A stretch of DNA of 64,000 nucleotides, from NCBI GenBank assembly GCA_003024785.1, contig PUQB01000509.1:1-64000 (forward strand), read 5' to 3'. Made by a program: the position numbers and the translations under genes. The notes beneath the pieces were generated by a model, which saw only the letters and a list, made by a program, of their open reading frames with translations, made no database searches and had not been told where the DNA came from. Positions 2,626 to 56,051 of the stretch are shown here, piece by piece. The stretch comes from Selaginella tamariscina (lineage: Eukaryota; Streptophyta; Lycopodiopsida; Selaginellales; Selaginellaceae). Positions within the stretch are counted from its first letter, which is position 1. Every line of letters begins with the position of its first letter.

Positions 2626-3704
2626 TGTCATAGTTCTAATTGACTACATGGGTAAAGATTGTAGGATATGTGGATAAAAAGACTCAAGCGTAACTAAGTC
2701 ATCATGACCAAGGGCCCTCTCATAAACACCAATTGGCCCTTTGCCTAGTTGGCATAAGGGGAGAGGGAAAGGTTGTGACATTTGGTATCGGAGCGGTTCC
2801 GAGTTTGAGAGAATGAACTTTGAGTAAAGCTCACGCCACTTATTGTACATCCAAGCGTGGGTAGAATACTCACGCCACTTGTGTACACCCAAGCGTGAGT
2901 AGAAACGCCTTTGGCTACACCTTCTGGAGGAAGGCATAGTAGCAACCACCACTTGTGTACAGCCAACATGAGTAGAAGTACACAAGCGTGGGTAGAATAC
3001 TCACGCCACTTGTGTATAGCCAAGCATGAGTAGAAACGCCTCTGGCTACACCTTATTGCCAAGCATGAGTAGAAACGCCTCTGGCTACACCTTCTGGAGG
3101 AAGGCATAGTAGCAACCACCACTTGTGTACAATCAAGCGTGAGTAGAAACGCCTCTGGCTGCACCTTCTGGAGGAAGGCATTGTGTACAGCCAAGCGTGA
3201 GTAGAAACGCCTCTGGCTGCACCTTCTGGGAGGCATTGTGTAAACCAAGTGTGAGTATAAACGCCTCTGGCTGCACCTTCTGGGAGGCATTGTGTACAGC
3301 CAAGCGTGAGTAGATGAGGGCATCCACTTTCTCAAATGGGTGAAGAGTGTCATAGTTCTAAAGATTGTGGGATATGTAGTCAAAGACTCAAGCGTAACTG
3401 AGGCATAGTAGCAACCACAGACTCATGGGCCTTTCTCCATAGTAGCAACTCTTGAGTTTGTGGATGAGGGCATCCACTTTCTCAAATGGGTGAGGAGTAT
3501 GGAGGAATCCTTGAGTCTATGGATGAGGGCATCCACTTTCTCAAATGGGTAGAGAGTGTCATAGTTCTAAAGATTATGAAATATGTAGGATATGTAGGCA
3601 AAAAGACTTAAGCGTAACTGAGTTATCATGACCAAGGGCCTTCTCATAAATACCAATTGGCCCTTTGCCTAGTTGGCATAAAGGGAGAGGGAAAGGTTGT
3701 GACA
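2626..3704 (+). mobile_element. TRIM-like miniature LTR element with internal tandem repeats
   Basis: Two direct repeats of about 150 bp (2626-2780 and 3557-3704) both begin TGTCATAGTTCTAA and end GGTTGTGACA, as LTRs do. Directly inside the left repeat lies TTGGTATCGGAGCGG (2782-2796), which resembles a primer-binding site for initiator-Met tRNA. The internal part is only about 780 bp, has no retroelement protein, and consists mostly of tandem copies of a CTCACGCCACTTGTGTAC / GGCTACACCTTCTGGAGG unit plus partial LTR pieces near 3347-3400. This size and layout fit a terminal-repeat retrotransposon in miniature, which depends on another element for its proteins. A clear target-site duplication was not found; both flanks are T-rich. 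Confidence 0.72.
2830..3330 (+). repeat. Tandem repeat array inside the TRIM element
   Basis: Units of roughly 50-75 bp recur here, each containing 'acagccaagcgtgagtag', 'aaacgcctctggctgcacc' and 'ttctggaggaaggcat' in the same order but with variable length. A second motif, 'ggatgagggcatccactttc', recurs near 3313, 3464 and 3522. The long minus-strand reading frames over this region are by-products of the repeat period. Confidence 0.75.
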
Positions 3705-8458: not shown

Positions 8459-9010
8459 CAGAAAACAAAGAATTTGTATGTATAAATGAATACTATATAC
8501 AGACGTGCGAAAACAGTGAGGATGAGTGTCCTTAGACGGTTTCTTCTAGATTATGTTGGCGAGTCTGAGTATGCTACTCAAGCTCATCTTCATAGTCATT
8601 TTCATATTCTTGCTATAATTTATAATTAATAGAGTTTGCAATGAAGTACCACATATAATCGAATAGATAACTTAATAGTATAACGTCTCAGTTTGTTTAG
8701 TACTAGTTGTTCTAATCAAGTTCCATAATCAAATTTACCGAGCTTGAAGACGCCATAATACTTATTTAACCACTCGGGTATATTCCTCATGTAAAGCTGT
8801 ACTATTTAGCAGTTAATTAAGAGTTAACGGACCCACTAAGCTCCACTAACCGAAGCATAAATGAGCATGATTAATCAGCCGTTGATATGGTAGTGATCTG
8901 AGCCATCCGATGGGCGCCGGGAATCGACGGTGATGCCTGTTTGCCGGCGGGCCTTATATTTAGGTTGCCGGAAATGTGTCACCGGACTACCGGCGATGTC
9001 CAGCTAGTGC

Positions 9011-9364
9011 GTGTATAGTTGTGTTCATTCTCTCTCTTTGTTCCTCATTTTCGGCAGAGGTTTTTCGGAGATGGCGATGGCGGCTCCCGAGATGGCGGCT
9101 ATGGCGACACGGAGTCGGATCTCGGACTGGCACCTCGGATCTGCCACGCGACAATGTGGAGCTCGGACTGTGACGGCGCTTCAATCGGGGCGGCATTCAT
9201 CGGCATTTCTTTGTAAGTTTTCCGAATCATCTCTAGAAGCACAGGGAAGCGATTCCGCAGCAGAAAAGAGAAATCTTTCCTTTCCAAGAATCCATTCGGC
9301 TTTCGAAATGCAGCAGCTGTATCACCGCATCTGTTGTAACGCACGGGAAATCGCTGCCGAGTGA
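9011..9364 (+). other. Probable 5' leader exon or unrecognised small ORF upstream of the At1g16860-like gene
   Basis: A GC-richer stretch open for 117 codons, in contrast to the AT-rich surroundings. Its in-frame start at 9071 gives MAMAAPEMAAMATRSRI, an Ala/Met/Arg-rich N-terminus somewhat like an organelle transit peptide. No domain follows and it ends 150 bp before the next gene's ATG. It could be the transcribed 5' leader of that gene or a separate small protein. Confidence 0.3.
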
Positions 9365-9511
9365 ACAGTTTCTTCCTTCCGTGAGTTTCAAGTCTGGCGG
9401 TTAGATCTAGAGCAAGAAAGGAGATGGATTTGAGGATTCTGAGCAATGTTGAATAGATCTAGTCAGGATTGAATGCAACAGGGGACATTTGGATAAAAGG
9501 GAGGATAAATC

Positions 9512-10748
9512 ATGACTAGCAACAACAGCTACAGTATACCGGCAACGAGTTTCCCGTCTCATCAGCTGAGCAATGGGCTCTATGTCTCCGGCCGGCCGGA
9601 TCCACACAAGGAGAGGCTGCCCACCATGAGCTCTACAGCAATGCCGTACACAGGAGGGGACATAAAGAAATCCGGTGAGCTGGGAAAAATGTTCGATATC
9701 CCGGTCGAGGCACCCAAATCGAAGAAATCTGGTCCGATTGGAAATGTACCACAGCCGAAGCAAGTGGGTGTCGTTCTGTCGCGGTCTCATTCCGGTCGCT
9801 CCCGTCCGGGGCTCCTCGGACAGCTTTTCCCGCTTCCGGACCGATCAACATGAGCAAGTCGTATTCGCAGAAATCGAATTCGGGGCCTCTTTCCGGAGCG
9901 GGATTCGCGGGTACACATGGGTCGAAATCTGGACCACTCACGGGACCACAGGTCACAGGATTGAAGACTTCAGGCCCTTTATCAGGTGGAGCTACACCAA
10001 ATGTTCTGAAGACTTCCGGCCCACTTGCACCGAATCTGCCTGCAACGGGACTTATTACGTCTGGACCGCTTTCATCAACTGGAGCTCCTCGTAAGGGATT
10101 CTCAGGCTCTTCTAGAACCCGGGGCATCTGGACGGTTTCCCAGAACCGCATCAATGCACGGCGGGGGCAGTAACAAACATGAGCCACGAACAGAACTCTT
10201 CTTTCAAGAGCAACTTTCCAAGAGTTATACTCTGGACTGTGATACCACTCTTCATCATGGGATTCATTGCCGGTGGATTCATTTTGGTTGCCGTCCACAA
10301 TCCCATACTGCTCATCGTGGTTGCTTCACTCTTCGTGGCATTGATGATGCTCCTCGTCTGGAATACTTGCTGGGGGACTAAGTCCGTTCTGGGTTTTATT
10401 GGCAACTTTCCGGATGCTCAGCTGAGCAATGCCAAGGACGGGCAGTACGTAAAAATTACCGGGGTAAGCTTGGTTGTGTGTGTGTGTGTGTGTGAATTTA
10501 TTGATCAATATGCTGAATTCCAGGTTGTAACGTGTGGAAGTGTTTCCTTTAGAGTCGTCCTATCAAAAGGTTAATCGGTGCATATATACGTCAACGTGCC
10601 TTCAAGAATACAGAGGAGTTGATTCAAAGCCAATCAATGAGAAGCAACGGAGGTTCACCTGGGCTATCAGGCATATGGATGTAAGTATAGTGCGCACTCG
10701 TGTGTGGCTTGTGCGTCTCTCTCTTCTCTCTCTCTCTCTCTCCTCTCT

Positions 10749-10809
<61 letters not shown>

Positions 10810-10815
10810 TATATA

Positions 10816-10851
<36 letters not shown>

Positions 10852-11994
10852 TGTAGAGGCATGTGGTGGATTTCTACATTTCCGATTTCCAATCTGGTTT
10901 AAGAGCACAAGTCAAAGTGGATATGGTGCAATATTACGCCATATGTTGAAGAGAACACGATAGTGGAAGTTGCGCCTACTACAAAGGAACTACCAAAGGA
11001 TTTCGTACGCTGGTTGTCCGAGAGAACCTTCCAGGGAGGATAGAATAATGCGACTCACAGAGGGGTACGTATGCTTAAATTCAATGTTTATGCTTTGAAG
11101 TAGTCGGCTATACACAAAGCGTATACCTTTATACATGTATATACTTATTTATGGATGTTTTTTATGCATACTGATACGTCATAGTATCCATATGCATACG
11201 TATGTCTACACACACATACAACGTCAAAGCAGCAGTAAGTATATTCACGTTCACAGTAAGTAAAAATGGTAAAGTACACATTTTGTCTCTGCTAGTGTAT
11301 GCATATGAATGATACGTTTTTGTATTGTATAAAAACATATACATGTCAGTTTCACAGGTATTGTTGTTGTGCAATATATTCTTACTTTAATATCACTCTC
11401 TTCTGTGTGCACCTTATGAACCACTCCGTATGTGTTTGTATGCGCATGCATTGTGTAGACAGACACATGTTAACGTCCAAAGTACTAAATCATTATCGCG
11501 TTTGACTTTGTGTTCCTTTATGTACTCTTCCACACGCAAACTCGTACACCCGCAGCCAACATTCGAATGATATTGCCGTTGATACCCACCCACACGCACT
11601 AAAGTATGATGCACTTTTATCTGCCTGTAGTTTATGCAGGCACACGCAAACTTATGCACAGACGCTCCCAGTCTCACATAATTCAGCCCCATGTTGTTTC
11701 TCGTGACTATAGGTGTATATGTGTATGGTGGACAAACCCATGATATACTTACACACACACAAATATGACATCGGTGTGTAGTTGAAACTCGTGATATACA
11801 GATACATCAAGGAAGGGAGCACGGTGACAGTGTTGGGAGTCGTCCAGAGGCACGAGAACGTACTGATGATAGTGCCACCACCGGAGCCAGTGTCAACAGG
11901 GTGTCAATGGCGGAAATGCTTACTACCAGCCAACTTAGACGGCCTCATCATAACATGTGATGAAATTTCCAAGGTCGATGGCATACCAGTTTGA
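9512..11994 (+). CDS. At1g16860-like plant membrane protein ('ubiquitin-specific protease C19-related' family)
   Basis: Four exons (9512-10463, 10524-10680, 10857-about 11064, 11802-11994) match this plant-specific family along its length. The N-terminus has FPSHQLSNGLYVSGRP and AMPYTGGDIKKSGELGKMFD, then a low-complexity stretch of repeated SGPLS motifs (TGLITSGPLSSTGAPRK). Two adjacent hydrophobic segments follow (VILWTVIPLFIMGFIAGGF and PILLIVVASLFVALMMLLVW). The C-terminal domain contains NRCIYTSTCLQEYRG, RHVVDFYISDFQSGLRA and YIKEGSTVTVLGVVQR, and it ends DGIPV, as in Arabidopsis. Despite its annotation the family shows no protease catalytic residues; its function is unknown. The frame slips about six times, including at GTTTCC near 10547 and again in exon 3, each time with the expected protein resuming in another frame. 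Intron 2 carries a long (CT)n(TA)n(TATG)n microsatellite. Confidence 0.88.
10717..10856 (+). repeat. Compound (CT)n-(TA)n-(TATG)n microsatellite
   Basis: About 80 bp of (CT)n with a few interruptions, then (TA)n, then nine or so GTAT units ending at the splice acceptor ATGTAG. It fills most of intron 2 of the At1g16860-like gene. The long 'RERERE' and 'SLSLSL' frames here are artefacts of this repeat. Confidence 0.92.
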
Positions 11995-11999
11995 GTAAG

Positions 12000-12153
12000 A
12001 GTTTCCTCTCCGCTTGTAAGTATGTGATTGCAAAGTGAAAAATTCTTTGTTTTTTTTTCTGCAAATCGAGTCATTATTTATATTGTTACCATCTCTTCTC
12101 CTCTTTTGTGTATGTGTCTATGGCTTCTCTAAGCATATGAGGTCTTTCACTTA

Positions 12154-12189
<36 letters not shown>

Positions 12190-13100
12190 TTATTGCACAT
12201 GCATGCTCGTAACTAGCTATGCCTTGTTACAGGCATTTATACACACTCTCAGTCTCTCTAGCTTTTTCCTTTTAAAAAGAAATCATTGTAATTAATATAT
12301 CATTGTTCATGTACACAGTATTTCAAAATTAACAGTGCTAATTTAAGTTAGTATATAAATCGTTTCTTTGTTCATTATACACACAAAAGATACAATCTTC
12401 TTCTATACGAGTTCAAACTTAAATTAGCGTTCTTTTATTAATACTATGTATAATCTTGTTTAAATTGATATTAATATAATAGTATTACCTATACATACGC
12501 GGCTAGTTTGCCGGTCAATACATTTTAAGAGAGATTTAAGATGTATATTATTATGACATAAGGAGGAATATTAAATAAAATATGAATAAATTTCGTTAAT
12601 GTTAATGCATTTTGAATTAATATGTTTTCTTATTGAATGTGTTTTTGTGCATGTTAATTAAAAGCTTAAAAAGAAATACCTACCAAAACCTTTGAAATTA
12701 TGGAAATATTAAATCGTTCGTTACTACGTGTATAAAAATTGAAGGGGAAATAAATTTTTGATACATGTGGTAATGAACGATTTAGATTATACTGGTATAT
12801 CCGTAGTATTAGATAAACTGTTCATGGATTGCTGATCTAATAATGTTATAATTGTTTTGAAAATATACCTTTGGATTAATTATTCATGATTTTTAATATA
12901 TATTTTAAGTTGACAAACCCTCAAAATTAAACATAACTTTCATAAATAAAGCTACATTGTTATTTATTATTATTGTTTTATATGTATATGGTTACTTTCT
13001 ATTGTTTTCTTCATCATTTTATGTAACCATATGTACTGATCAGCTTATATATAATTATATATAATATGATATCTAACCTATAGTTCTTTCTGCTTGCATG
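12000..13100. other. AT-rich intergenic DNA
   Basis: Downstream region of the At1g16860-like gene. A compound (CT)n(CA)n microsatellite lies at about 12154-12190. The remainder is AT-rich with no supported gene. Confidence 0.6.
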
Positions 13101-13105
13101 TGTAA

Positions 13106-13783
13106 CTAAGAACATAATGAAATCTCATATTGTAGCATAATACAATTAAACAGCAAAACGAGTACAAAATGACTTATATAATTCAGTTTAACAAAACAAG
13201 TTGGTAAGACACAAAACGAGTTGGTAAGAACTTCAGTTGTGGCTGGGATTAGGGCAGGGGGTGGAGTTGTGAAGAGGGTTGGGACCGTCGGAACCTCGTG
13301 GAGATCGTCGCCCCAGTTGTAGAACGGGTCAGGTCCAGAAGGAACTTCTCTCAACTCGGGCAACTCGTTGTGGACGGGACTCGGACCAGAGGGTGGCAGA
13401 TCCACTTTGGGCTTTAACACTTGGAACAATAAAGGAATATCGTGGTTGTACGGGACTGGGACCAGACGTTGGCAGATCCACTCTGGGCTTGGATACTTCA
13501 AACATCATAGGTACGTCGTGGTGTACGGGACTGGGACCAGATGGTGGACTAACCACTTTGGGCTTGGATACTTCAAACGTGCCTAGTTCATTATGTACAG
13601 GATTCGGACCGCCGGGTGGCAAATCGACTTTGGGCTTCGAGGCTTCGAAAGCGCCTACCATGTTACCGCCCGGACTCGGACCGCTGGGGCACCTGAATAA
13701 CATCCTGCTCCATGAGTATTCTCGCTTGCAACCGAATACAAATGCCGATAGGAGCAGCAAGCTCAAGACTATAAAGACGCCAT
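13106..13783 (-). CDS. Multi-domain CLE (CLAVATA3/ESR-related) peptide precursor
   Basis: The minus strand encodes a hydrophobic signal peptide (LSLLLLSAFVFGC after a likely ATG at 13783) and then a train of CLE-like dodecapeptides. In order these are RCPSGPSPGGN (13662-13694), DLPPGGPNPVHN (13590-13625), a SPPSGPSPVHH form (13518-13553), DLPTSGPSPV.. (about 13446-13480), DLPPSGPSPVHN (13367-13402), REVPSGPDPFYN (13316-13351) and a decayed HEVPTVPTLFTT (13265-13300). Known CLE ligands follow R-x-V-P-S-G-P-N/D-P-L/I-H/S-N, so REVPSGPDPFYN is close to the TDIF class. Spacers contain a conserved FEVSKPKV. CLE peptides are secreted, hydroxyprolinated ligands of LRR receptor kinases. There is one base slip inside the fourth unit (a run GGTTG where sister units have GGTG) and another just after the ATG. 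PIP/IDA-type peptides share SGPS but lack this HN ending together with VPSGPDP. The 3' limit is uncertain, because the tail after unit 7 looks like 3' UTR. Confidence 0.78.
13265..13694 (-). repeat. 72-bp then 51-bp in-frame tandem repeats of the CLE precursor
   Basis: Units 1 to 4 begin exactly 72 bp apart (13662, 13590, 13518, 13446), meaning 24 residues. Unit 5 follows after 79 bp and units 6 and 7 after 51 bp each (17 residues). The most conserved bases are those encoding SGPSPV and FEVSKPKV. The same repeat keeps the opposite strand open for 179 codons, which is a by-product. Confidence 0.85.
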
Positions 13784-13819
13784 CTCTAACAACTGACTAT
13801 GAGTTCTTTCCTAAGTAAC

Positions 13820-14179
13820 CACTGAATATATAAGAGGCTAGGGCGCCACGCATGGAGGGAGCCACGCCATAACCGGTCTCTACCTGTACCCGATTACTTA
13901 AAAAGGTGCGATTTTAGAGCAAAAATATGTACCCTAAATCTAGACAAAGGATAATAATACCCCCATCATCTATTATTTTTTAGAATATTCTAAGAATATG
14001 TGTATACGTACATTACTTACTTCCTTTTTTCAAAGTGGTATAATCTATCAAGTTTACCGTGAATTCAGTTCTACATCTAACGGTGTACAATTGAAATCAA
14101 TACACATCCAATATTTTGATATTTTGAGTCATATTTGATCTACGTGGATGTGTGTGTGTGTGTGACAGAGAGAGCATTA

Positions 14180-14214
<35 letters not shown>

Positions 14215-14300
14215 CACATATTATACAGATAGTTGAGTTATCGGGTTTGTTTAACTTTTCTCAGTTACATATGAATAAATTTCATTATGGGGAAGAATTT
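13820..14300. other. Intergenic DNA with compound microsatellite
   Basis: No gene seen. (TG)n at about 14149-14164 and (CT)n(CA)n at about 14180-14218 face each other around a short spacer. Confidence 0.6.
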
Positions 14301-14738
14301 CTAAGAGCGTCTTTGTAGAAGAAAGAGTTTAAAGAGCAGCACATACACAGCAGCCGATGACATGTTTCCCGCAGCAACAAGCATGGACTTTATAAGCACC
14401 AATATCATTTCCAAGTCTCTCTCTAGATCCCCACATTCTTCTTCTAAGAGCATCTCCAGATCGATCTCAATGCCGTCTTCACCGAAAATCAGAGGCTTTT
14501 CGTGCCAATTCAATACCATGTCCTGTTTGTACAGATGCGACAGGCTGCTATTTTCTTCATGGAAAAGCATGTCGTTCCTGTGACCGAAACTCGATTGATC
14601 TGAATTGGGTGGCTTGTAAAACGTTCTTGCAGTCGGTGTAGCGACCCATGAATCGGAATGCGAGCACACCGCTCTGGGACATCGCTTTCCTGCATAGAGT
14701 AGCCATGTATTCGATCGAAAAGCTTTGATTATACCCAC
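14301..14738 (-). CDS. Hypothetical 145-residue protein
   Basis: An uninterrupted 145-codon minus-strand frame in a locally GC-richer stretch. It begins MGIIKAFRSNTWLLYAGKRC, has an acidic middle (EDGIEIDLEMLLEEECGDLE) and ends in a hydrophobic segment (AAVYVLLFKLFLLQRR) that could be a C-terminal membrane anchor. An overlapping frame (14557-14760) offers an alternative N-terminus, MATLCRKAMSQSGVLAFRF, resembling a mitochondrial presequence, so the true start may lie there. I recognise no family. Confidence 0.4.
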   Translation of the reverse strand: MGIIKAFRSNTWLLYAGKRCPRAVCSHSDSWVATPTARTFYKPPNSDQSSFGHRNDMLFHEENSSLSHLYKQDMVLNWHEKPLIFGEDGIEIDLEMLLEEECGDLERDLEMILVLIKSMLVAAGNMSSAAVYVLLFKLFLLQRRS

Positions 14739-15044
14739 ATATAAAACTGCTGTGAATCAATCAAGATCACTGCAAAAGAGCTATAAATCGATCAAGCAGA
14801 CTACAAATCAATAAAATATATATGCTGAGAATCTACATATTTACGCTGCTTTTCCGCGTTTTTCAATGCAGTGACTTTCACGGTTGGCCACCAGAATTGA
14901 GCGTTGAACTTATTAGGGCATGCACATCACTTTCGTGCGTGATCCAACGGACAGAACTCATGCCGCTAGATCAGCCGTGGATTTTAGAGCGCATCTTCTG
15001 GAACAAATGTGTACGAGTTTTTCAACAACCCCGAGTTTTGAAGA

Positions 15045-15682
15045 ATGCTTCCTGGTGTTGAGCTCGCTCGTAGAAGGAGAATAAGCTACTCTGACAGATC
15101 TCGCTCCGCCGCTCGTACATCACGGGAAGTATGTATCATATTTGTAACAATTTCTCAGCTTTATAGATAATTCTTCATATATATTTCAATTGTAGACGCA
15201 ATTAGCGGTTGCTACTGCACTTGAAACTCTTCAGGCACGATATACATCCCAAAGAGAAGATCATGCAGCCAGGAAAGCAGCAGCAAATGAAGCACGAATC
15301 CGTCTTGAAGCCCGTCTTCGAGCAACTTCATTAAGGTAATAATATAAACTTACACGCGCACGCACGCACACATTTGATACTTGATCTTGTAGAGGCGTTA
15401 ATGGTGTTTCGGGGAGCTACAAGAAACGTGGAAGCGAGAAAGCTGATGCCAGTTAATGAGACGAGAAAGCCAATGTTGGTCACAGAAGAAGTGTACAAGA
15501 AAGGAAATGGAGGGGGTGAACTGGACGTGTCCGAGTGCCCGATATGCTTGGAGACGTTTTTGCACGGCCATGACATTGTGTTGAAACTTCCTTGTAGACA
15601 TAGTTTCCACAGGCAGTGTGTGACTAAGTGGGTCCAGACCAATGGCTCCTGTCCTTATTGCCGTTCTCATTTAACTGTATAA
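15045..15682 (+). CDS. RING-H2 finger protein (probable E3 ubiquitin ligase)
   Basis: Three exons (15045-15128, 15196-15335, about 15379-15682). Exon 1 starts MLPGVELARRRR and is Arg/Ser-rich, exon 2 is an Ala/Arg-rich helical stretch (ATALETLQARYTSQREDHAA), and exon 3 holds a C-terminal RING-H2. The zinc ligands are visible as CPICLE, CRHSFH, QC and CPYC, giving the C3H2C3 pattern, with the conserved Trp in KWVQ. RING-H2 proteins recruit E2 enzymes to ubiquitinate partners; the substrate here is unknown. No membrane segment is obvious. The frame slips at the GGGG run near 15411, after which the RING frame continues. The start at 15045 was chosen because it alone keeps exons 1 and 2 in phase across canonical GT-AG sites. 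Confidence 0.8.
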
Positions 15683-15811
15683 TATAAGTATATTGTGTGC
15701 GTGTGCGTGTACGTGTGCGTGTGTGTCTAAACTCAGTGGATAAGTATAATACAGTTCAGGAATACACATAAATGCAACATTGTGTGTGTTTTAGGTCTAA
15801 ATTTAAAAAAT

Positions 15812-16685
15812 ATGAGGTTTCTCCATCTCATTGTTTTAGTGGGCGCCTTGGTAGTGGGCTTTCAGCTGCGAAATGGTACTTACACCACAACACACAAACA
15901 CACACAAACACATGTATATATATACGTTTTATATGGTAATGATTTTAGGTTATATGCGAAGAATGGCGACAGTAGGACTGAGGCCCGTTCGAATCGCCGT
16001 CGTTGGGGATGTGGTAAGCATGGAGAATGATTATTTCATATATCAATTATGTGTTATTATCTTATTTTCTCAGCATGGAGAATGGAAACATGTAACAGAC
16101 CAAAAAGCTTTGCAACATATCCAGGTTAGAAATAATCTAATTAATTTAATACCACGCACACATATATAGAGACACGTGTGTATCTATCGTTCTATATATG
16201 TATGTTTTATGAAATTATTTATTTGTGCAGCCGGATCTGGTGCTGTTTACGGGTAAGTTTTTCTTCTTCTTTTTTATTATTAAGTTTTAAGTTTATATGA
16301 TACAAACATGTGTCTATATATATATATGTGTGTGTGTGTGTGTGCATACTTATAGGTACACACGGATTTAATTTGCTTTACCTTTTTAAGGGGATTTTGG
16401 TAACGAAGATGTTAACTTGGTGAAAGAAGTTGCTAAGCTTGACATGCCAAAAGCTATTATCTTAGGAAACCATGACTGCTGGTGGAGTGGTCTCAGGTAT
16501 AACATGTGTGTATGTGTGTGCACTATATATAACTTTATCATAATAATCATGAAACTATCTGCTTGGGCCACATATTGAGTTATTAAGTACATATTATTCA
16601 GGGAGAGGGGCTATAAAGTTCAAGAGCCACTGATCAAGCCAAATGCAGTACAGGAGCAAATATCAGAGTAATTTCTTTTTTATTT

Positions 16686-16728
<43 letters not shown>

Positions 16729-17472
16729 GAGGAGAGAGAGATACGAGATATGTATCTGATTTTTGTTAGACTTGGGAAGTTTCATGTAGGATTCAGACGT
16801 GTAGATTATCCCCTTCTTAAACTGAGTGTAGTGGGTGGAAGGCCATTCTCACTCGGTGGTTCTAAGATGTTTGGTCACAAACACCTTGCCTCATTGTAAG
16901 TGGTTTTCATACACACACAAAACACACATACACGGATATCTCTATGTTTTCCTGGTTGAGCTAATTAATCTCTCTTTTGTGCAACTAGTTATGGTGTTAC
17001 AGACTTCAACTCCAGTGCTCAAAGGATAACAGAGGCTGCACTTGGCGCTCCTGAAGACCATTCTATCATTTTTCTTGGCCACAATGGACCAACTGGTACA
17101 CACGCACGCACGCACGCACGCACGCACCGTAAAGTTGGGGAATTCTGAATACTTTATAACCAGGACTGGGCTCAAATGCGGATGATATATGTGGGAAAGA
17201 CTTTGAGAAAGGAGCTGGTGACCATGGTGATCCTGGTAAGCCGCCATAGTATTAAACCATTATACATGTATACATTATACGTTATATATCCACGTTTGTG
17301 TGTGCGCGCGATATCTTCTGTTTCATGTATATAGGAGAATATTGTTACATATAAAGAATAAGCAGACTCTGAAGTCCATACCCCTACTTATTTCTTGTTA
17401 CACGCACAGACACACAGGCACATACATGCTCGTCACTAGCTAAAGAAGCCTATTCCTTGTTACAGGCAGTCA

Positions 17473-17503
<31 letters not shown>

Positions 17504-17914
17504 CACACACACACACCAACACACACAGCTGCTTATAGATACAGGTGCACAGATCTGTGTTTTGTGTGTGTTACAAAACCATTTTCTGCGTTTGTTTTAT
17601 GTAGATTTTGAGGAGGATTGAAGTTTTGTGAAGGCAAACGAGGGATACCACTGGTAGTATTCGGTCACATGCACCACAAACTCTCGAAAAATCAAGGGTG
17701 GAGGAAGATGACTGCAGTTGGAGGCAAGGGAACAGTCTACTTAAATGCCGCAGTGGTTCCAAGAACACGAGATTCCGAGCGCGAGAGGGAGTTTGCTGTG
17801 GTGGAGATGGTGAATAACAAAGTGCACAACATTGTTGAGACGTGGGTGAGAGTCGAGGGTGAGGATGTGAGTACTGCACAAGAACGTGTTTTGTTTGATA
17901 GTTCTAAGGCTTAG
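15812..17914 (+). CDS. Calcineurin-like metallophosphoesterase (cyanobacterial/plastid-type, TIGR04168-like)
   Basis: Ten exons: 15812-15875, 15949-16013, 16074-16124, 16231-16252, 16391-16496, 16602-16667, 16770-16895, 16989-17095, 17164-17235 and 17605-17914, all with GT-AG borders. The metal-binding blocks of the superfamily appear in order: GDVHGEW (split by intron 2), LVLFTGDFGNED, ILGNHDCWW, FLGHNGPTG and VFGHMHHKL. This domain layout, with PFSLGGSKMFGHKH before GHNG, matches a family shared by cyanobacteria and plants. The first exon encodes a hydrophobic segment (LHLIVLVGALVVGF) that may be a signal anchor or part of an organelle presequence. The substrate is unknown. One base appears to be missing near 17616 in GAGGAGGATTG, after which the frame resumes LKFCEGKRG. 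Introns carry (CA)n, (TG)n and CGCA repeats. Confidence 0.87.
17460..17520 (+). repeat. Compound (CT)n(CA)n microsatellite
   Basis: About 12 CT units run straight into CA units inside the last intron of the metallophosphoesterase gene. Confidence 0.9.
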
Positions 17915-18220
17915 TACATACGGCCAATACACATGCATTTACACGTTGAAAGTGTGTGTTCTTTGTGTGTAATATGCTGTTGCTTAATGTGCTTAAAAAA
18001 AAATTTATTGAAATTTTTCAATCACACACACACACATACACCACAATCAGGCCCACGTGAAGTCCAGATGCAACATACTCTCGTACGAATACTTCCTCGT
18101 GTACCATCTCTCTCGCACACGCACACGCGCACACATACACACACACACACACAATCAAACTCACACACGCCAATCAAACACATGTCGAAGTGTTGTGTTT
18201 GACTACTGTAATTTGAGAGA

Positions 18221-19351
18221 ATGGCGGAAGCCGGAGAGAGCATGCAAGCATACAATCAGATCTGGAGCCTTACACTGGAATTCGCTGCACCATTCGCAGT
18301 GAATGCCGCACTCAAGCTGGGCATATTCGACATAATCTCCAAGTCGGAGTCCGAACAGGGAGCGACCTTGGAGGACATCAGTAAGCAGCTGGAGCTCCAC
18401 GGACATGTTCCACAAGGTGGGAAGCTGTACAGACTGTTGAGGTTCCTGGTGTTTAAGGATGTTTTAACCTTAAACACTGGTAATTCTCGCTATGGACTCA
18501 CTCCAATGTCCGAGATGCTTGTTCGCGGTGACAACAACCTCTTTGTGGCTCCCATTCTGTCGTTCTTTACATCGGAGGTAAACCAGCTCTGCTGGCAACA
18601 TATAGACAGTGCTATCAGTATGCCTGGAGATTCAAACCCATTCATAAGAGCCCACGGTATGGATCCGGGCAGTTACGTTAGATCACATCCCGAGTTCGGT
18701 GAATTCATTGAGATGTTCAGGGTGGCTGTGAAGGACGCCGAATTTACAGCTACTATGAGATGCTACCACGGCTTTGAAGGCATTAGAAGGCTTGTTGACG
18801 TCGGGGCGGCACGGGATCGTTCGTCGCTGAGATTGTCAAGGTTCATCCTCATATTGAAGCCTTCAACTTTGACCTTCCTCAGGCATTTGCGAATGCGCAA
18901 CCTTATCCAAGTAGTTTGCCATCCATTTTTTATTTGATTCATATTGTGTGCTCGATCAGGTGTGAAGAATGTCCCTGGGAATGCAATGGAGAGTATACCT
19001 TCTGCAGATGGAATTTTTATGAAGGTTAGTGACAAGAGTTGGAAGAAAATTGAAGATGAGATTTGATTTTGCAGAACTTCTTGCACATGTTTTCGGACTC
19101 GGACGCATTAAAGATACTTGCTAACTGTTACGAAGGCGCTTGAGAACAATGGCAAAGTTATAATAAGCGACATGGTAATGGACGAGAGTAAGGAGCTGCA
19201 CTTGCTGCTTGACATGCAGTTCCTTAATAACCAACGCTACGAACGCACCCGCGGAGAGTGGGAGTCGTTGCTTGCTTCCGGTGGGTTCGAGAGGATTAGT
19301 TTTTATGATATTGGTACACCTTTCTCAATTGTTGAGGCTATTAAAGCTTAA
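18221..19351 (+). CDS. Caffeic acid O-methyltransferase-like SAM-dependent methyltransferase
   Basis: Three exons (18221-18910, 18960-19024, 19075-19351). The N-terminal dimerisation domain reads SLTLEFAAPFAVNAALKLGIFDII and is followed by YRLLRFLVF. The SAM-binding motif I begins LVDVG near 18793, then AFNFDLPQA and VPGNAMESIPSADGIFMK, then the C-terminal NNGKVIISDMVMDE, WESLLASGGFERI and a final PFSIVEAIKA. The catalytic His lies in NFLHMFSDSDALKIL, the position used by plant phenolic O-methyltransferases. Typical substrates are phenylpropanoids or flavonoids; which one cannot be told. Two one-base slips occur, at GGGGCGGC near 18804 (inside the glycine loop) and at GAAGGCGC near 19132. Both lie in G runs with similarity continuing beyond. 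Confidence 0.87.
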
Positions 19352-46916: not shown

Positions 46917-49900
46917 TTACAACACCGGACTGGTATCCATGATATCTTCTAGCCTCGTTACCACGTCTCTCATACACGGTCTTCTCACGGGAAGTCCTGT
47001 GTGCAGTCGAGTGCAAGCTTTATAAATTTCATCACATCGTCCCGACTGCCTGTCCTTGCTACCGACGGATCAATGAGCTTCTCAAAGTCTCCCTGCCTAC
47101 TGCACTCCGTTGCAAACTCCACTAGACTCCCATAGTTCTCTTTGGTGTTACTGTTGTTCATGTAATCCGACATCGGTCTCTTTCCAGATACCAACTCTAA
47201 CAACACCACGCCAAAAGCTGTACACGTCACCTTTCACAGTAGCTCTCCACGTTTGACAATACTCAGGTGGTACATACCCAGAGTGCCAGCAACAATGGTG
47301 CTGACGTGGGTCTCTTCCTGGGCAGCCAAAGCCCTGGCCAAACCGAAGTCCGTCAGACGTGGCCGGAATTGTCCGTCCAAGAGAATGTTACTGGCCTTCA
47401 TATCCCGGTGAATGATTGTTGGACAGCAGCTGTGGTGCAAAAACTTGAGCCCCTTGCTGTACCGATTGCCACCTCCAACCTCACCGGCCACTTCAATCCT
47501 CCATTGCGCGTATTCCCTTCTGGAGTCCCATACAACCAGTCTTCGAGGCTCCCGTTCTCCATATATTCATACACCAGAAGCCTCTGTGCACCGTAGGATG
47601 AGTATCCCATGAGCGGTACGAGATTCTCATGCAGAATGTGCCCCAAGGTGTGCATTTCCGCCTGAAACTCCCGCTCGGCAGCTGGTCCCTCCCGGATGAG
47701 CTTCTTAATGGCCACGTCGAACCATCCGAAAGACGCGCTCGGTACACAATGCCGAAACCCCCACAACCTATGACGTTTGACTTGTCAAAGTTCCCTGTTG
47801 CTTTGACCAAGTCGTTGAAAGTCAACCTCTTGGGTAGGTCCATGGTGAAAATGGAAACACTTACATGGTCTAGTGAGGGCTCCCTGCTGCTTAACTTCCC
47901 ACTGTAACTGTATTCCATCAAGTTCAAATCTGCTGGATCAGCTATGGATGATGTCGAAGGCTTTCTGTTCATCAAGCAGATTCCCACCAAACACATCACT
48001 ACCACACCAAGTGTACATGACAAACTGATACCCAGAATAGTGGAGACATGGATAGAACTCCGACGGCTTCTCCCATGGTCACCAGTAGCCTTGCCAGCGG
48101 TTTCCCCACAGAATGGGATGTTGCTCGACGGTTCTTTCGATCCTGTGGCACTTCGTACGTAACAAAGGTGGTAGTTCCCATAGTAAGATTCCTCCCCAAA
48201 CGTGGTAAACTGTTGCTGGAACGGTATCGGCCGCTAAGCATGGGGTTGTACGAGATATTGAACCGATTGAGGGAGGTGAGATTTGCAAGCGACGGCGGGA
48301 TCGTCCCGCTCAAGTTGTTGTTGGAGAGGTCCAAGCTTTGGAGGCACTGAAAGTCTCCAAACCGGTTGGGAATGGAACCTGTGAGTGCATTGTGAGAGAG
48401 GTTGAGCCCCGTGAGCTTGAGGTTGCTGAGCGATCCTGGATGGAACCTGTGAGGTTGTTCTGGTACAGGAACAACAGACTGATCCGCTCGATGTTGCCGA
48501 AGCTCTCTGGAATGCTGCCTGAGATTCGGTTGTTGGAGAGCTGTATAAAACCCATAGATTTCTCTATGGGAGTTGCACTGCAGACTGAGTACATGAACTT
48601 CCCTCTCAGGAGGAGGTTCCAGAACTGCTGACACCTGTCTCTGTCAAGCACCTTGTTGACAAGGCTGAACGGTGGATAGTCACTTGGCAGCCATCTCCTG
48701 AGTACAGCACACTCCCCAATCTCCTTTGGGATGAGCGGGAAATTCGCCAGATTATCATCAAATGTAGCCTTCACGTTCCTTCCCATCTCGTGCATTTCAG
48801 TCGGGAGCTCCCCGGTGATCAGGTTCCCAGCCGCATTCAACCAGAGCAGGCTCGAACAGTTGCCGAGCTCCGAGGGATGGGACCGTCCAGCCGATTCCCA
48901 GCAAGCATGAGCCAGAGAAGCTTCTGAAGCTTCCCAATCGAGGCTGGGATGGAACCTGTAAGCCTGTTGCTTGAAACATCCAGGAACTGAACCTCACGCA
49001 TCTCACCGAGACTCTCAGGAATGGAGCCCTCGAAGCGGTTTCCCGCCAGCAGAAGGAACTTCATGTCCCGGAAGCTGCCGTCGAATCCTGTCGGAATATT
49101 CCCAGTCAACCTGTTTGCCGCTCAGGTCCAAGTGCAGCAGCTGCTTGTGATTTTCCACAATCCATGCCGGAATGTTCCCTTCGAAGCCGTTGGTGTGCAG
49201 AACCAGGTAACGGAGACTCGTGAGCTTAGCTATGGAAGACGGAATGCTACCTGTGAACGAATTCTCGTTCAGAATGAGCACTTGCAGTTTGGAGCAATTC
49301 GTTATGGTGTCTGGTAGCCTTGACAGGTTGTTTCTCCCAAGAACAAGAAACTCTAGTGAGCTGAGCAATCCGATTTCTGTGGGGAGTTCTACAATCTTGT
49401 TCTGAGAGAGCGTCAGGTTCATGAGCTTGGAGCACGAACCCAAGGAAGACGGGATACCATCTGTGAGATTGTTGAGAGAAAGATCTATAGTTACCAGAGA
49501 TGATGTGAACAGACCGGCGGAATGGGTCCTGTGAGATGGTTGTTTGCCAGACTGAGGCTCTGGAGTGATGGCAGGCTCCATCTCGGGATTTCTTCAGAAA
49601 GTTCGTTGTTCTCGAACGTGAGCGTGGTCAGTCCAGCGCAGCTGCTGAGCTGATACGGAATCCGTCCATGTAGCCGGTTCGTGGAGAGATCGAGCAGTCT
49701 TAGCTGACGGCAGTTGGTGAAGATCTCACCGGGGATTGGTCCGGTGAGATTGTTAGTAGAAATGTTGAGGGTCCCCAAGGAGAGCTGCGAGAAGGACCTT
49801 GGAATTTCGCCATGGAGAGAGTTGTTGGAGAGATCTAGGGTTCTTAGAAAAGTGCAGTTGGAAATCTCCCTAGGAATGCTCCCGTTGAAGAAGTTGGCAG

Positions 49901-50245
49901 ACAGAACGAGGGAGTCAAGGCTCCATAGCCGGACTAGATTACGCCCAGGTATCGGACCTTTGAGGCGCTGATACGAGAGATTTATCTTGGAAACCTGGTT
50001 GTCGCTGCATTCAATTCCTTGCCAGGAACAAGGAGTTTTGTCACTGGATTTCCAAGTGGACAGCGCGCCATCCTCCGGATTGTGGCTGAGGATCGCCCTC
50101 TTGAAATCTAGTAGCGCTTGCATCTCTTCTTGGATTGAATCTGTATGCACAACAAGAGAATTAAGCAAATGCCTGGTGCAGGCATAGAATGCATACCTGT
50201 TTGAGCAAGCACGAGGTGGATTAGGAAGAAGATTAGCTTCAACAT
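46917..50245 (-). CDS. LRR receptor-like kinase, EMS1/PSKR/BRI1-related (subfamily X/XI)
   Basis: A first small exon (50197-50245) encodes the signal peptide MLKLIFFLIHLVLAQT. The large second exon (46917-50140) holds an N-terminal LRR cap (ALLDFKRAILS, PCSWQGIECSD) and some twenty LRRs of the xLxxNxLxGxIP type. A membrane segment follows (about LGVVVMCLVGICLMN), then a juxtamembrane TFNDLVKATGNF and a kinase domain. The kinase keeps its key residues: GCGGFGIVYRA glycine loop, [17 protein letters not shown] (RD-type), TDFGLA and KGDVY. It should be an active serine/threonine kinase that senses a peptide or steroid ligand at the plasma membrane. At least four one-base slips are seen, mostly in homopolymers (for example TTTT near 47210 and CAGG near 46993). 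The C-terminus reads RPCMRDVVTRLEDIM. Confidence 0.9.
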
Positions 50246-51903: not shown

Positions 51904-54756
51904 TCAAAAGGACCCGACAAGCTCCTCCGAGGCAGCAAAAAGCCGGTCTCAAATCCTTAAGCAGGCCAACCACCTGTTGCATTGTCGGCCTCTTGTTGGG
52001 GACTTCAGCAGTACACAAGAATGCCACCCTCAAAGTCTCAAGCATCTCGTTCATATCCTCGTCTCCCTTCATAACCTCATGTCCAGGGCCTTATACCCTC
52101 GCTTCTCCTTAACCAAACCCCTTGTCCATTGCACAAGACTGTGCACATTACTGCTCCATTGTAGTCATCCCCCACTGGTCTCTTCCCACTTATAAGCTCC
52201 AGCAGCACCACACCGTATGCATAAACATCACCCTTCTGTGAGCTTTCACGGTTGCTCGAAGCCATTGCAAACTCAGGAGCCACACAGCCAGGTTCCATAC
52301 CACCGATATCCACTAGCTGCGCCAACCCAGTCCCAGCCAACCGGGCCTCCAACCGAGCATCTAATAGGATATTACTGGCCTTGACATCACCATGCACCAC
52401 CGGCGGATACATCCGTGGTGAAGAAATGCAAGGGCCCGGGCTGCACCAAGTGCCACCTGTGCCGCACTGGCCATGGCATGCCAGTCCAATCCTCCTGGCT
52501 GTTGCCATGCTCCCATGTGTCTCTCGACCAGTCCTCTGTATTTCCTCACCCCTTCCGGTAGCTCATGAAGCCGGCTGTACACGTCACCTCCATCCTGTAC
52601 GTGTTCATATATCAGCAGCCGTTCCACTCCCACCATGCAGTAACCGAGCAACGGTACACGTTGGGGTGTTTCAATCGGCCGATTGCCTTCAGTTGCGCCT
52701 CCACGTCAGCCAAGGGTATCCCTTCCCCAAGCAGCTTCACATCTGCATGGACACCACCTGGCAGTACCGCCTCAAACACCGGTCCGCACCCCGCGCTATC
52801 TGGAAGTTGTACATCCTTATTGAAACTCCTAGTCGCCTGAAGAATGTCTGCGAAAGTTAGATTCAGCAGTGGCTTCTCAAACATGACCGCTGGAATGTTC
52901 TGTGGATCCCGCACACCAGCTGCCCAAACAGAGGGATCATCTCGGACGAAAACGGGCCCGACATCGAAATGTAGCGCTCCTCCTTGACGGACTCCGGTTC
53001 TTCCCGCAAACCTGCATGCTCCTGCAGTATAAAATTCCAGCAAGCAGACAAACGGCTCCTGCTAAGCATCCTGTGGCAATGCCCACTATAACAACAACTT
53101 TGAGGTGTTTACGCCCGCCGCCAGCGTGAGTTGATCTTGGTCTTGGACATGGAACATCGACCACACTCCCACACAATCCTTTGTTCCCAGACAACCCTGA
53201 AGGAGTCAGAAACGACCAGTCCGGAACGTTCCCAGTGAGCTCGTTATACGAGAAGTTCACACTCTGCAGAACTGTCAACTTCCCAGGGACTCTGGATTTG
53301 TCCTGAGAGATGATTATATGACATGTCCAGCAGCTCCAAGGACTTCAAGCTTGCTACGGAATCTGGTATTCTCCCAGACAAACTGTTATGTGAGACATCC
53401 ATCTGTTTCACGCCCTCAAGAGTCCCACATTATCTGGGACATTCCCAGCTAGCCGAGTTGCTGAGAGGTTGAGATACTCAAGGTGTCCGAGTCCGGCCAC
53501 GTTCGGAAACTGGCTGTCCGAGAATGGTTTGGGCCAGTCCGAGATGGGTCAGAGACGGCAATGCAGGCTTTTCCGGTAAACGTCCAGTCCTGATTCTCTG
53601 ACAATTCGAGAAAAACAAGTCTCTGGAACCCCCGCATGTCGGACGGGATTTGACCAGTGAATTCATTCTCCCGGAGGTTGAGCTCCTTCATTGCGGCACC
53701 GATATCTGGCATGATCCCCGACAAGTGCTTGTTTCCATCCAGACGTAGAATCTCCAGAGAGTTCATCTTCCAAGTATCACCCGAGACTGTCCCGGACAAG
53801 CTGTTCTGTCCCAGGTCGATCAAACTCAGGTTGCTCTGCAGCGATGGATCAGGCAGGCTACCAACGAACCCATTGTTCCTGGCTGAAAACGTCCTCAATG
53901 CTGGAACTCGAAATGCCCAACAGGGATTCGTCCAACAAGGAGGTTGTTCGAGATGTTGAGAAACTCGAGTTTACGGAGTCCATCCAGACGTGGGAACTGC
54001 CATTGAGCTGGTTCTCGGACAGATCTAAAGCAGTGAGGTAGTGTAGCCGGCTTATATCAGATGGAACAGTTCCCTGGAGGCCATTCTTGTTTAGTGAAAG
54101 AGACTGCAGCCGCGTCAAGTGGACGATTCCAGAGGAATCGGCCCGGAGAGATTGTTGTGTGAGAGATCTAGTGTCAAGAGTGAAGTGCAGTTGAGATTGA
54201 ATCCGGAATGGGGTCCTGGAGGCTGTTCCTGCTCAGATTCATTGCCAGGAGACTCTGAAGGAAGCCAATCTCGGTGGGAATCTGTCCTGAGAGTCGATTC
54301 TGTGAGAGGTCTAGGACCCTGAGACCCGAAGTAGATGCATTTCGGAGATGAACTGTGATTGAACCTGTGAGTCCATTCGCAGAGAGATTGAGAGTACTGA
54401 GCAATCTGAGCTCCCAGATATCAGATGGTACAGAACCAGAGATGGAGTTGTTAAAGAGATTGAGAGAAACTAATCCGGTCAGCTTCCCAAGGGTGCCATC
54501 CGGGATGGAGTTATGTAAACCGGTGCTTTGTAGATCAATCCTCTGAACACGAGAATCCGAGCAGGAGATTCCTGGCCACGAGCAAGGGGAGTCAGAAGAC
54601 AGATGTATGCTGATTTCCTTTCCAGAGGGAGTGTGTTCTCAAGGAAGATCTTGAGAGCTTCCCTGTCTGAATCTATTGAAGAAGTGGGTCTCTGCGCCTG
54701 AGCTCCAAAGACTGATCCAGGAAAAAAAGCAGCAGAATTCCTCTTGGGTCGCGCAT
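51904..54756 (-). CDS. LRR receptor-like pseudokinase of the At2g24230/At5g58150 type
   Basis: Apparently a single exon. The N-terminus (start at 54756, [12 protein letters not shown]) is a signal peptide with a likely cut after GAQA. A cap follows ([26 protein letters not shown]), then an LRR ectodomain of about 20 repeats, a membrane segment near 53050 ([12 protein letters not shown]) and a kinase-like domain. The latter reads [39 protein letters not shown] and ALAFLHHGC, close to the Arabidopsis family. Catalytic motifs are degenerate: the glycine loop is [14 protein letters not shown] is replaced by HGD ([13 protein letters not shown]) and DFG by GTG ([11 protein letters not shown]). It is therefore probably a pseudokinase acting as a co-receptor or scaffold. 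It ends [18 protein letters not shown]. Several one-base slips occur, such as at TTTTT near 51934 and the T run near 54723. It lies in tandem with the other LRR kinase but belongs to a different subfamily. Confidence 0.88.
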
Positions 54757-54759
54757 TAT

Positions 54760-56051
54760 CAATAGCTGGTCTGGAAGGGAAATCAAAATTTCTTCAAACT
54801 GATTCATCTGGACCTACCTGGTCAATTCTTCATTCTGGATGCTGTTCTTCTTCATCCCGGATTCGGGGAGAGCTCCGGATTCAAGCCATTTCCCGAGTCG
54901 AGCGGACATTCAATCGTTCAAACCCACAAAGCCCTAAACACTCATGGTAAAAGACAAAAGTGAAATTGTAAAGATAAAACCTCATTTTCCTCTGTTTTTG
55001 GGTTGGTAGATTTGGCGGCTGTAATTACCTCAAAATTAATTAAATAATTATCACATGATTAACAACGTTATCGCTGTACGTAATCTCATTAATTTTTTCT
55101 TCCAGTGGCGCCGAAAGTGACGGATAAGGATAGCTTTCAAATTCAAATTTTTAGGCTCATGTCCCTGTCTCTAGGGCAACCACGCGATGGTGGCTGGCTG
55201 TCCTCAATCACAATCACAACATTACCTAGCTGGCTGCTGAAGGTTAACACATATTCTACGCTGAAGATTAACACATTCTACGACTTTGATCTATAGTTCA
55301 TTAATATAGTTCATGGCGGCTGACTTCGTCGTACAGTCCATACGAATATTCCTTGAACACAAGTCAACATTCAATATTCACATCTTCTCGGGAGACCAAC
55401 TCTGTTAAGTTAAACATCTGGAGGAAAAGTTAGACCGAAGTACAAGCTTTTTTGAGAAGAAAACAGGCTGTCTGTGTTGGTTCGTTGTTTTGTTCATTCA
55501 CCGAAAGAAACAAAGGACGCTGACAATGACAACTACTATACACATATACGTTTTATATATACACATGATTTGTATATGTGTGTGTGTGTGTCTTAAGTTG
55601 TGTGTGTGGGTCTTGTCAAGAGATATGCCAAACCTTTCACAGTTATCACATGAGGCCGGCACAGTTTGCACAACATTCATGGCTGGCTCTTTTTTTCCTT
55701 TCTTCCCTCCGTGACAACCCAGCTTTTTAATCTGGTTGGTGGACACTGTCACTGCCAAATACACACACACCATTATGTGTGTGTATGATGTGTATTATCC
55801 TTATCTATATGTTTTTAAGCTGCTTTACATATAAAGCAATCAGGATAAGCAGACTTGACAAAGGCTGGAGGAACACATATGTGCGTCTGTGTGTGCTGTG
55901 TAATTAGTGATTTAAAGTGTTTCGTGTTTGGTAGGATGTAAAGGCGACTACCACTCACTCACTTTAATGGGTTTGGTATATCCTTTAAGGGACAGGCTCT
56001 CTCTATACACGCACACATACATATATGTATATTGTATAAATGGATTTGCCA
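54760..56051. other. Intergenic DNA
   Basis: Promoter side of the LRR pseudokinase gene and 3' flank of the aldose epimerase gene. It contains (TG)n near 55577 and other short dinucleotide tracts. The open frames here (for example 55105-55296) show no domain and I do not call genes. Confidence 0.55.

Follow-up and report, generated by a model that had tools for sequence, protein, structure and literature searches.

A probable multi-CLE precursor gene with two classes of peptide unit in Selaginella tamariscina

We consider a window of 64,000 nucleotides from Selaginella tamariscina (GCA_003024785.1, contig PUQB01000509.1, positions 1 to 64,000), in which seven CLE-like dodecapeptides are encoded on the minus strand between positions 13697 and 13266. 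The coordinates of these units and of the features around them are collected in Table 1. Measured between unit starts (13697, 13625, 13553, 13478, 13402, 13351 and 13300), the spacing is 72, 72, 75, 76, 51 and 51 bp; an exact 72-bp period had been claimed for the first four units, and it holds for the first three, with the fourth at 75. Repeat finders recover part of the array, as four copies at 76, 75 and 72 and as a period of 76 over 13365-13578.

Table 1. Coordinates of the peptide-unit array and its flanking features in the window
Feature	Position	Strand	Remarks
Putative multi-CLE precursor gene, window haplotype	13233..13783	-	frame broken here; intact copy on C486
ATG and hydrophobic, signal-peptide-like N-terminus	13728..13783	-	MASF...FGC in C486; frame break inside in the window copy
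Unit 1, ends PSGPSPGGN	13662..13697	-	motif score and C486 ORF
Unit 2, DLPPGGPNPVHN	13590..13625	-	CLE score 23.9, IDA score 11.9
Unit 3, VSPPSGPSPVHH, PP-type	13518..13553	-	motif scores
Unit 4, DLPTSGPSPV.., PP-type	13443..13478	-	frame break at unit end in the window
Unit 5, DLPPSGPSPVHN, PP-type	13367..13402	-	CLE score 18.0, IDA score 21.7
Unit 6, REVPSGPDPFYN, canonical CLE	13316..13351	-	CLE score 26.3
Unit 7, HEVP..GPNPLHN, canonical CLE	13266..13300	-	internal frame break in the window
C-terminal tail, degenerate repeat-like stretch, TGA stop	13233..13265	-	
TATA-like sequence	13826..13832	-	43-49 bp upstream of the ATG

As assembled, the window copy cannot be read as a single protein or ORF. 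The frame that begins with the ATG at 13783 is four codons long, and the hydrophobic stretch lies in another frame, with no start codon before it in that frame. This stretch shares its frame with units 1-4; units 5 and 6 follow in another frame, and unit 7 has a part in each of the two. Upstream of the ATG, the TATA-like sequence is a putative promoter element; the stretch around it (window 13462-13857) is matched at 84-87% in eight of nine tandem relatives described below, while the match of the ninth ends at 13817. Elsewhere in the window we observe a dispersed repeat (~12516-12713), found at 69-81% identity on at least 26 other contigs when 40 of 330 candidates were scored, and minisatellites (2830-3314) with units of 38-54 bp and a common CAAGC(G/A)TGAGTAGAA core.

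Searching the assembly (300.7 Mb in 1,391 contigs, the window being part of contig C848), we find that contig C486 carries the window region in reverse orientation. Window positions 8652-18613 align with it at 97.0%, and the 10,063 alignment columns include 43 mismatches and 91 gap openings. A stretch that partly overlaps this one aligns at 98.7%, its 4,518 columns having 8 mismatches and 19 gap openings; one exon of the neighbouring LSM-domain gene is matched on C486 at 32 of 32 residues. Judged by these alignments, C486 looks like the other haplotype of the region. Its copy of the gene has an intact ORF of 193 aa, 184 of them from the ATG, with all seven units in one frame at residues 31, 55, 79, 104, 129, 146 and 163, and unit 7 reads HEVPTGPNPLHN. 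The protein starts with a hydrophobic MASFIVLSLLLLSAFVFGCQA/R (Kyte-Doolittle maximum 2.67 over 15 aa), followed by the unit array; this N-terminus precedes CQA/R in C486, and the corresponding position is APA/R in the relative on C581 and ASA/R in that on C646. It is thus the C486 copy, and not the window copy, that has at least two motifs with regular spacing and similar linkers in one ORF, the hallmarks of a multi-CLE gene. The original prediction of a seven-unit CLE-like precursor, with a signal-peptide-like start at the ATG at 13783, is rescued in substance by this intact ORF with its in-frame hydrophobic start. The units are where they were said to be, on the minus strand, but on the frame, as on the period, the prediction was wrong: in the window the hydrophobic start is out of frame with the ATG, and a single ORF exists only in C486.

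Are the frame breaks of the window copy real? Between C486 and the window, the coding region differs at five indel places and by two substitutions, neither of which is a stop. At the gap rate of the 10 kb alignment (one per 111 columns), 5.0 gaps would be expected across the 551 bp of the gene, which is therefore no more damaged than the sequence around it. Gaps outnumber mismatches two to one, an excess typical of uncorrected long reads, and this favours uncorrected assembly error over decay; a similar excess is found in the C581/C674 pair of relatives, where 3,117 columns contain 18 gap openings and 2 mismatches. From these comparisons the frame breaks are most likely assembly errors. It is unlikely, by contrast, that the window haplotype is a true pseudogene, a frame-lost allele beside which only the C486 allele works. 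The five indel places are what such a reading would build on, along with the broken frames of other genes in the window, one of them broken in both haplotypes; the gap rate of the gene, the gap pattern of the C581/C674 pair and the scarcity of substitutions all speak against it.

The other genes deserve a closer description. An LRR receptor kinase gene 34 kb away (window 47174-50123, minus strand) has nine frame changes in 2.95 kb, and a second one (~52080-54793, minus strand) is also split over several frames. An O-methyltransferase gene (18212-19348, plus strand), with dimerisation and Methyltransf_2 domains, has a frame change near 18799-18811 that is common to both haplotypes. It could be genuine damage to the gene, an assembly error made in both copies, or a splice that was not recognised. 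For the first kinase gene the assembly holds no second copy; besides itself it finds only a 69% partial match on C1381. At C486:105000-119000, its expected place if the two haplotypes are collinear, there is no BLAST match to the window, and the ORFs look retroelement-like by eye. As a control for the frame breaks this kinase gene is not decisive, since no allele was found. Nine frame changes in a gene without a second copy, together with the O-methyltransferase change in both haplotypes, make real decay in the region possible. We also considered a nematode origin of the multi-CLE gene; it is ruled out by the plant-named best PDB matches of the LRR receptor kinases and the O-methyltransferase in the window, as well as by the LSM-domain gene in the window and by rbcL in the assembly, whose two best PDB matches are 9chz and 1wdd, the latter a rice protein.

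To score the CLE signal of the units, a position matrix built from 50 poplar CLE motifs, 38 of them distinct (PMC4776436 Table 1), was run over all six frames of the window, in which 68,989 12-mers are free of stops. The eight best 12-mers all lie in the locus (26.3, 23.9, 18.0, 14.2, 12.4, 11.0, 8.1 and 6.6), some of them being offset readings near unit 7 and the tail, and the best 12-mer outside the locus reaches 6.0 against 26.3 for the top unit. Units 2, 6 and 7, the last scored at 37.2 in its C486 form, lie above the lowest leave-one-out score of the 38 poplar motifs (21.0), whereas units 1, 3, 4 and 5 lie below it, at 9.3-18.0. When the residues of units 1-6 were shuffled 20,000 times each, no shuffle equalled the real score for units 2 and 6, and two to three did so for units 1, 3 and 5. 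Five of the six tested units are thus almost never matched by their own composition; unit 4, tested in the broken form of the window, is matched by 157 of 20,000 and does not share this distinction.

These scores bear on the reading of the locus as a proline-rich cell-wall or structural protein that resembles CLE precursors by composition. It repeats proline-rich units of 24-25 aa, and Pfam assigns nothing to the three window ORFs tested or to the precursors of C486, C581 and C606; nor does the C486 precursor match any PDB entry by sequence. We regard such a protein as very improbable, given how seldom the shuffled units reach the CLE scores, and given that the terminal units are canonical CLE motifs, unit 6 and its flank agreeing with rice CLE76 at 12 of the 14 residues of ELPELREVPSGPDP.

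One may also ask whether the coding strand is the plus strand, where the longest ORF of the locus in the window runs antisense to the array (13273-13815, 181 aa). The codon differences among four aligned units are 19 silent to 21 non-silent in the sense frame and range from 2/38 to 17/22 in the other five, the 17/22 belonging to an antisense frame, so that the silent-difference test alone separates the sense frame from that one only weakly. In the relatives, however, the antisense ORF is lost: the longest one has 124 aa in C486 (sense ORF 193 aa), 71 aa in C581 (sense 159 aa) and 88 aa in one C606 copy (sense 127 aa). The window ORF has no Pfam match, and the CLE match lies on the minus strand instead. 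As a gene, the antisense ORF is largely refuted by being shorter than the sense ORF in the relatives, and we can hardly credit it.

The units fall into two classes when a second matrix is added, made from eight tomato IDA motifs after one misaligned row had been dropped and SlIDA11 moved out of the set. Canonical units score 25.8 to 39.4 for CLE and -2.9 to 13.5 for IDA, and PP-type units 8.1 to 18.0 and 8.9 to 21.7, respectively; two units stand apart, in that unit 2 of the window locus is CLE-like and the first one of C581, degenerate at -6.5, matches neither matrix. By this measure the PP-type units, such as DLPPSGPSPVHN and ETPPAGPSPIHN, are intermediate between CLE and IDA, and REVPSGPDPFYN and REAPSGPDPLHN are canonical CLE motifs. 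That the central set differs from the last unit, as had been noticed at the outset, is borne out by the scores and by the same order in the relatives. The further claim that the last full unit is close to the TDIF class is weaker than it was made: unit 7 has a TDIF-like start (HEVP) but ends in LHN, and unit 6 is nearer to rice CLE76 REVPSGPDPITS and to poplar RAVPSGPDPLNN, both at 9 of 12 positions, than to TDIF HEVPSGPNPISN (8 of 12).

Does the same arrangement exist at other loci? Protein searches of this assembly and the retrieved loci give, besides the window/C486 pair (group A), five further groups: B on C606 and C826, C on C581/C674, D on C646, E on C481 and F, partial, on C636. The precursors of group C have 153 (C581) and 148 (C674) aa and four PP-type units (ETPPAGPSPIQN, ETPPAGPSPIHN, DTPPAGPSPIHN and LSPPAGPSPIHN), with one degenerate unit besides, before the terminal REAPSGPDPLHN. 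Group E consists of two adjacent ORFs, the first with three PP-type units followed by RQVPSGRDPIHH, RQVPSGRNPIHH and HGVPSGPNPRHN, and the second with two further PP-type units; upstream of the first unit, the first ORF has no clear in-frame start or signal. Group D has units of the PPSGPNPGG type, then RDVPSGPNPIHN, with RQVPSGPDPVHN and RQVPSGPDPFHN in another frame. Common to groups A, C and E is the unit order, PP-type first and canonical CLE last. The GPxPGG(N/D) ending, as seen in unit 1 (PSGPSPGGN), recurs in groups B, D and E (L005-L013, L014 and L032), and a table of PMC8618561 lists a similar ending in the 16D10 peptide of root-knot nematodes. A separate ORF (L035, 664-1422, plus strand, on C104, and L036 on C491) combines a hydrophobic segment at the N-terminus with two APSGPNPGGN repeats and a DTPNPGPSKDHN stretch; the L035 ORF has no Pfam match.

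The conservation of the PP-type units was followed over 13 PP-type and related units of three loci, in which PP..GPSP..HN is mostly kept with varied codons (for the terminal units, one string of 13 was absent from the codon comparison, leaving 12 rows). By Nei-Gojobori counts, pN is 0.15 and pS 0.77 between loci; within loci the two values are 0.16 and 0.51 for the units of C486 and 0.07 and 0.34 for those of C481. Among the PP-type units of C581, pN is 0.04 and pS 0.64, a ratio of about 0.06, and on these counts the units of C581 are under purifying selection, with strong constraint. Two residues upstream of the 12-mer, 11 of the 13 units have a lysine or arginine, which may be a cleavage mark; the precursors contain 5-11% K+R and the repeat units are not independent, hence the count is given without a probability.

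A different picture emerges from the tandem cluster of group B. It occupies nine places on contigs C606 and C826, and some of these may pair up as the two haplotypes of a single place. In five of the nine copies (L005, L006, L007, L010 and L012) the ORF runs unbroken from MASF to its stop codon, L008 and L011 are open from unit 1 to the stop without the MASF start, and L009 and L013 are frame-broken. None of the nine has an intact PP-type unit ending in HN or HH. Every copy shows damage to the counterparts of units 2 and 5, and the eight in which the counterpart of units 3-4 is readable show it there too. The damaged forms GPNP-ELGT and SG-HNEL occur in all nine, SPP-PVHH in eight. No copy lacks unit 1 (PPSGPSPGGN), and the terminal REVPSGPNPLH is present in eight, with N as the next residue in six and I in L011; L009 was read up to this string. 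Aligned by hand, the length differences from C486 are all in frame before the tail (9, 87, 12 and 51 nt), and may reflect either residues lost in the cluster or residues gained in C486. Over the compared blocks L007 and C486 show six silent and seven replacement differences, with no replacement in the two terminal blocks. With 125-127 aa and a terminal unit that is intact, the C606 relatives approach the single-CLE form of 60-120 aa. Read in this way, the B lineage stands near a single-CLE gene, and group C keeps its PP-type units under strong constraint.

The damage in group B implies that the counterparts of units 2-5 are dispensable there, and it counts against a need for every unit. One may suppose that only one or a few units are active, above all the terminal canonical ones, with the PP-type units in decay or acting as a spacer. 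On this supposition it makes sense that five of the nine copies keep the ORF though these counterparts have lost residues in frame (9, 87 and 12 nt), and that the terminal unit stays readable in eight copies and unchanged in amino acids between C486 and L007. There are also precedents in print: the authors on wheat TaCLE26 guess at a single functional domain (PMC6747155), and for Medicago CLV3 only one of three motifs is said to be translated (PMC4526924). The near-silent divergence of the C581 units is hard to reconcile with decay or a spacer, as are the PP..GPSP..HN pattern kept with varied codons in three loci, the retained upstream basic residue and the survival of unit 1 throughout the cluster; in addition, what is taken for loss in the cluster may be gain in C486. 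We take the restriction to a few active units as a serious possibility, but not as the likely one.

We favour, with good though not full confidence, a plant gene for a secreted multi-CLE precursor that carries terminal CLE ligands and a diverged PP-type class, the breaks in the window being assembly error. CLE precursors in general enter the secretory pathway and are released by proteolysis, with hydroxylation of prolines, to bind LRR receptor kinases. By analogy, the hydrophobic N-terminus would direct the 184-aa precursor into the secretory pathway, where proteases would cut it into short peptides and prolines would be hydroxylated. For the terminal R/H-type units REVPSGPDPFYN and HEVPTGPNPLHN the most likely role would be that of conventional CLE ligands, recognised by LRR receptor kinases. 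The PP-type units, as a diverged IDA-like CLE class, would probably be released too, by cleavage beside the preceding lysine or arginine, and may bind a different or overlapping set of receptors. Against this reading stand the broken frame of the window copy, the damage in group B, the first C481 ORF without a clear start or signal, and the negative Pfam and PDB searches. The charge of the precursors counts against it as well: CLE precursors are mostly basic, to the point that a basic pI has been used as a filter (PMC2254619), and the whole precursors have a pI of 5.47 in C486 and 6.18 in C581.

CLE and IDA peptides are described as acting through different receptor kinases of one class, class XI (PMC5972575), and a common CLE-IDA ancestor has been proposed from motif clustering (PMC7552357). 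With both kinds of unit in one precursor, and in the same order in C486, C581/C674 and C481, the family offers a direct test of the activity and the receptor of an intermediate motif, and its members form a natural series from the full array over the damaged PP-type array to the near-single-unit form. A bolder idea is that one transcript would yield IDA-like PP-type and canonical CLE peptides in a fixed ratio for two receptor groups (HAESA-like and CLV1/BAM/PXY-like), the family being a living CLE-IDA intermediate; we hold this to be quite doubtful.

We turn to the known systems. The typical CLE precursor has 60-120 aa and a single motif near the C-terminus (PMC2254619), a form from which the present gene departs with 184 aa and seven units, its likeness to the multi-CLE form being unaffected. 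The original prediction took multi-CLE precursors to be known in only a few plants, but they are more widespread. Reports on cereals cover rice and wheat (PMC2254619), wheat TaCLE26 (PMC6747155) and wheat, rice and maize (PMC12677920). Those on legumes cover Medicago (PMC2254619), Medicago and Lotus, where a precursor has three to nine units (PMC5570945), and soybean, where it has six (PMC4526924). Further examples are radish, with eight units, and rapeseed (PMC11172632); nematodes have such precursors as well (PMC8618561). The motifs within one precursor are described as very similar, Medicago CLE68 excepted (PMC2254619).

The rice precursors CLE76 and CLE75 (PMC2254619 Table 2) resemble the present gene in having several regularly arrayed CLE motifs; EFPVLREVPSGPDP... 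of CLE76 is almost the sequence of unit 6 and its flank, and CLE75 shares GPNPVHNE with unit 2. In each of them the motifs listed are nearly alike, whereas two classes are mixed here; the first motif begins at residue 31 here, against 51 and 65 in rice, and the spacing is 17-25 aa against 25-36. Among the legumes, MtCLE14, LjCLE32/33/46/47 and GmCLE37a/b carry 3-9 units per prepropeptide, seven in several of them, with repeats of 24-35 aa in Medicago and Lotus (PMC5570945, PMC4526924); their unit sequences are published as figures, and mixtures of classes may occur among them as well. Radish RsCLEm1/2 and rapeseed BnCLEm also have tandem CLE units per precursor (PMC11172632); the five units of BnCLEm3 are nearly identical, and the available text of that source names no IDA-like class, against the two classes here.

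For units 1 and 3-5, the nearest reference motifs are the PVPP-type IDA-like CLE motif PVPPSGPSPCHN (PMC7552357) and SlIDA11 PVPPSGPSPIGN (PMC12903503), at 7-10 of 12 positions; the text available from these sources speaks of no array and of no canonical CLE unit accompanying them in one precursor, and position 1 is P in both but D, E, V, T, L or Q here. A proline at position 3, taken in the original prediction to be unusual, has published counterparts in the PVPP-, SVPP- and RIPP-type IDA-like CLE motifs (PMC7552357). IDA itself (PIPPSAPSKRHN) shares PP at positions 3-4, S at 8 and the HN end with the PP-type units, and has K9 and R10 where these have P9 and V/I10 (G10 in unit 1). Without K or R at positions 9-10, and arrayed rather than in a single C-terminal copy, the units differ from IDA proper; their best identity to the eight pure tomato IDA motifs is 8 of 12. 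In the texts consulted, which give the legume unit sequences as figures and include few subscription journals, IDA-like units are nowhere reported alongside canonical CLE units within a single precursor. The gene thus belongs to a known kind, the multi-CLE precursors, and what looks new in it is the mix of two unit classes in a fixed order.
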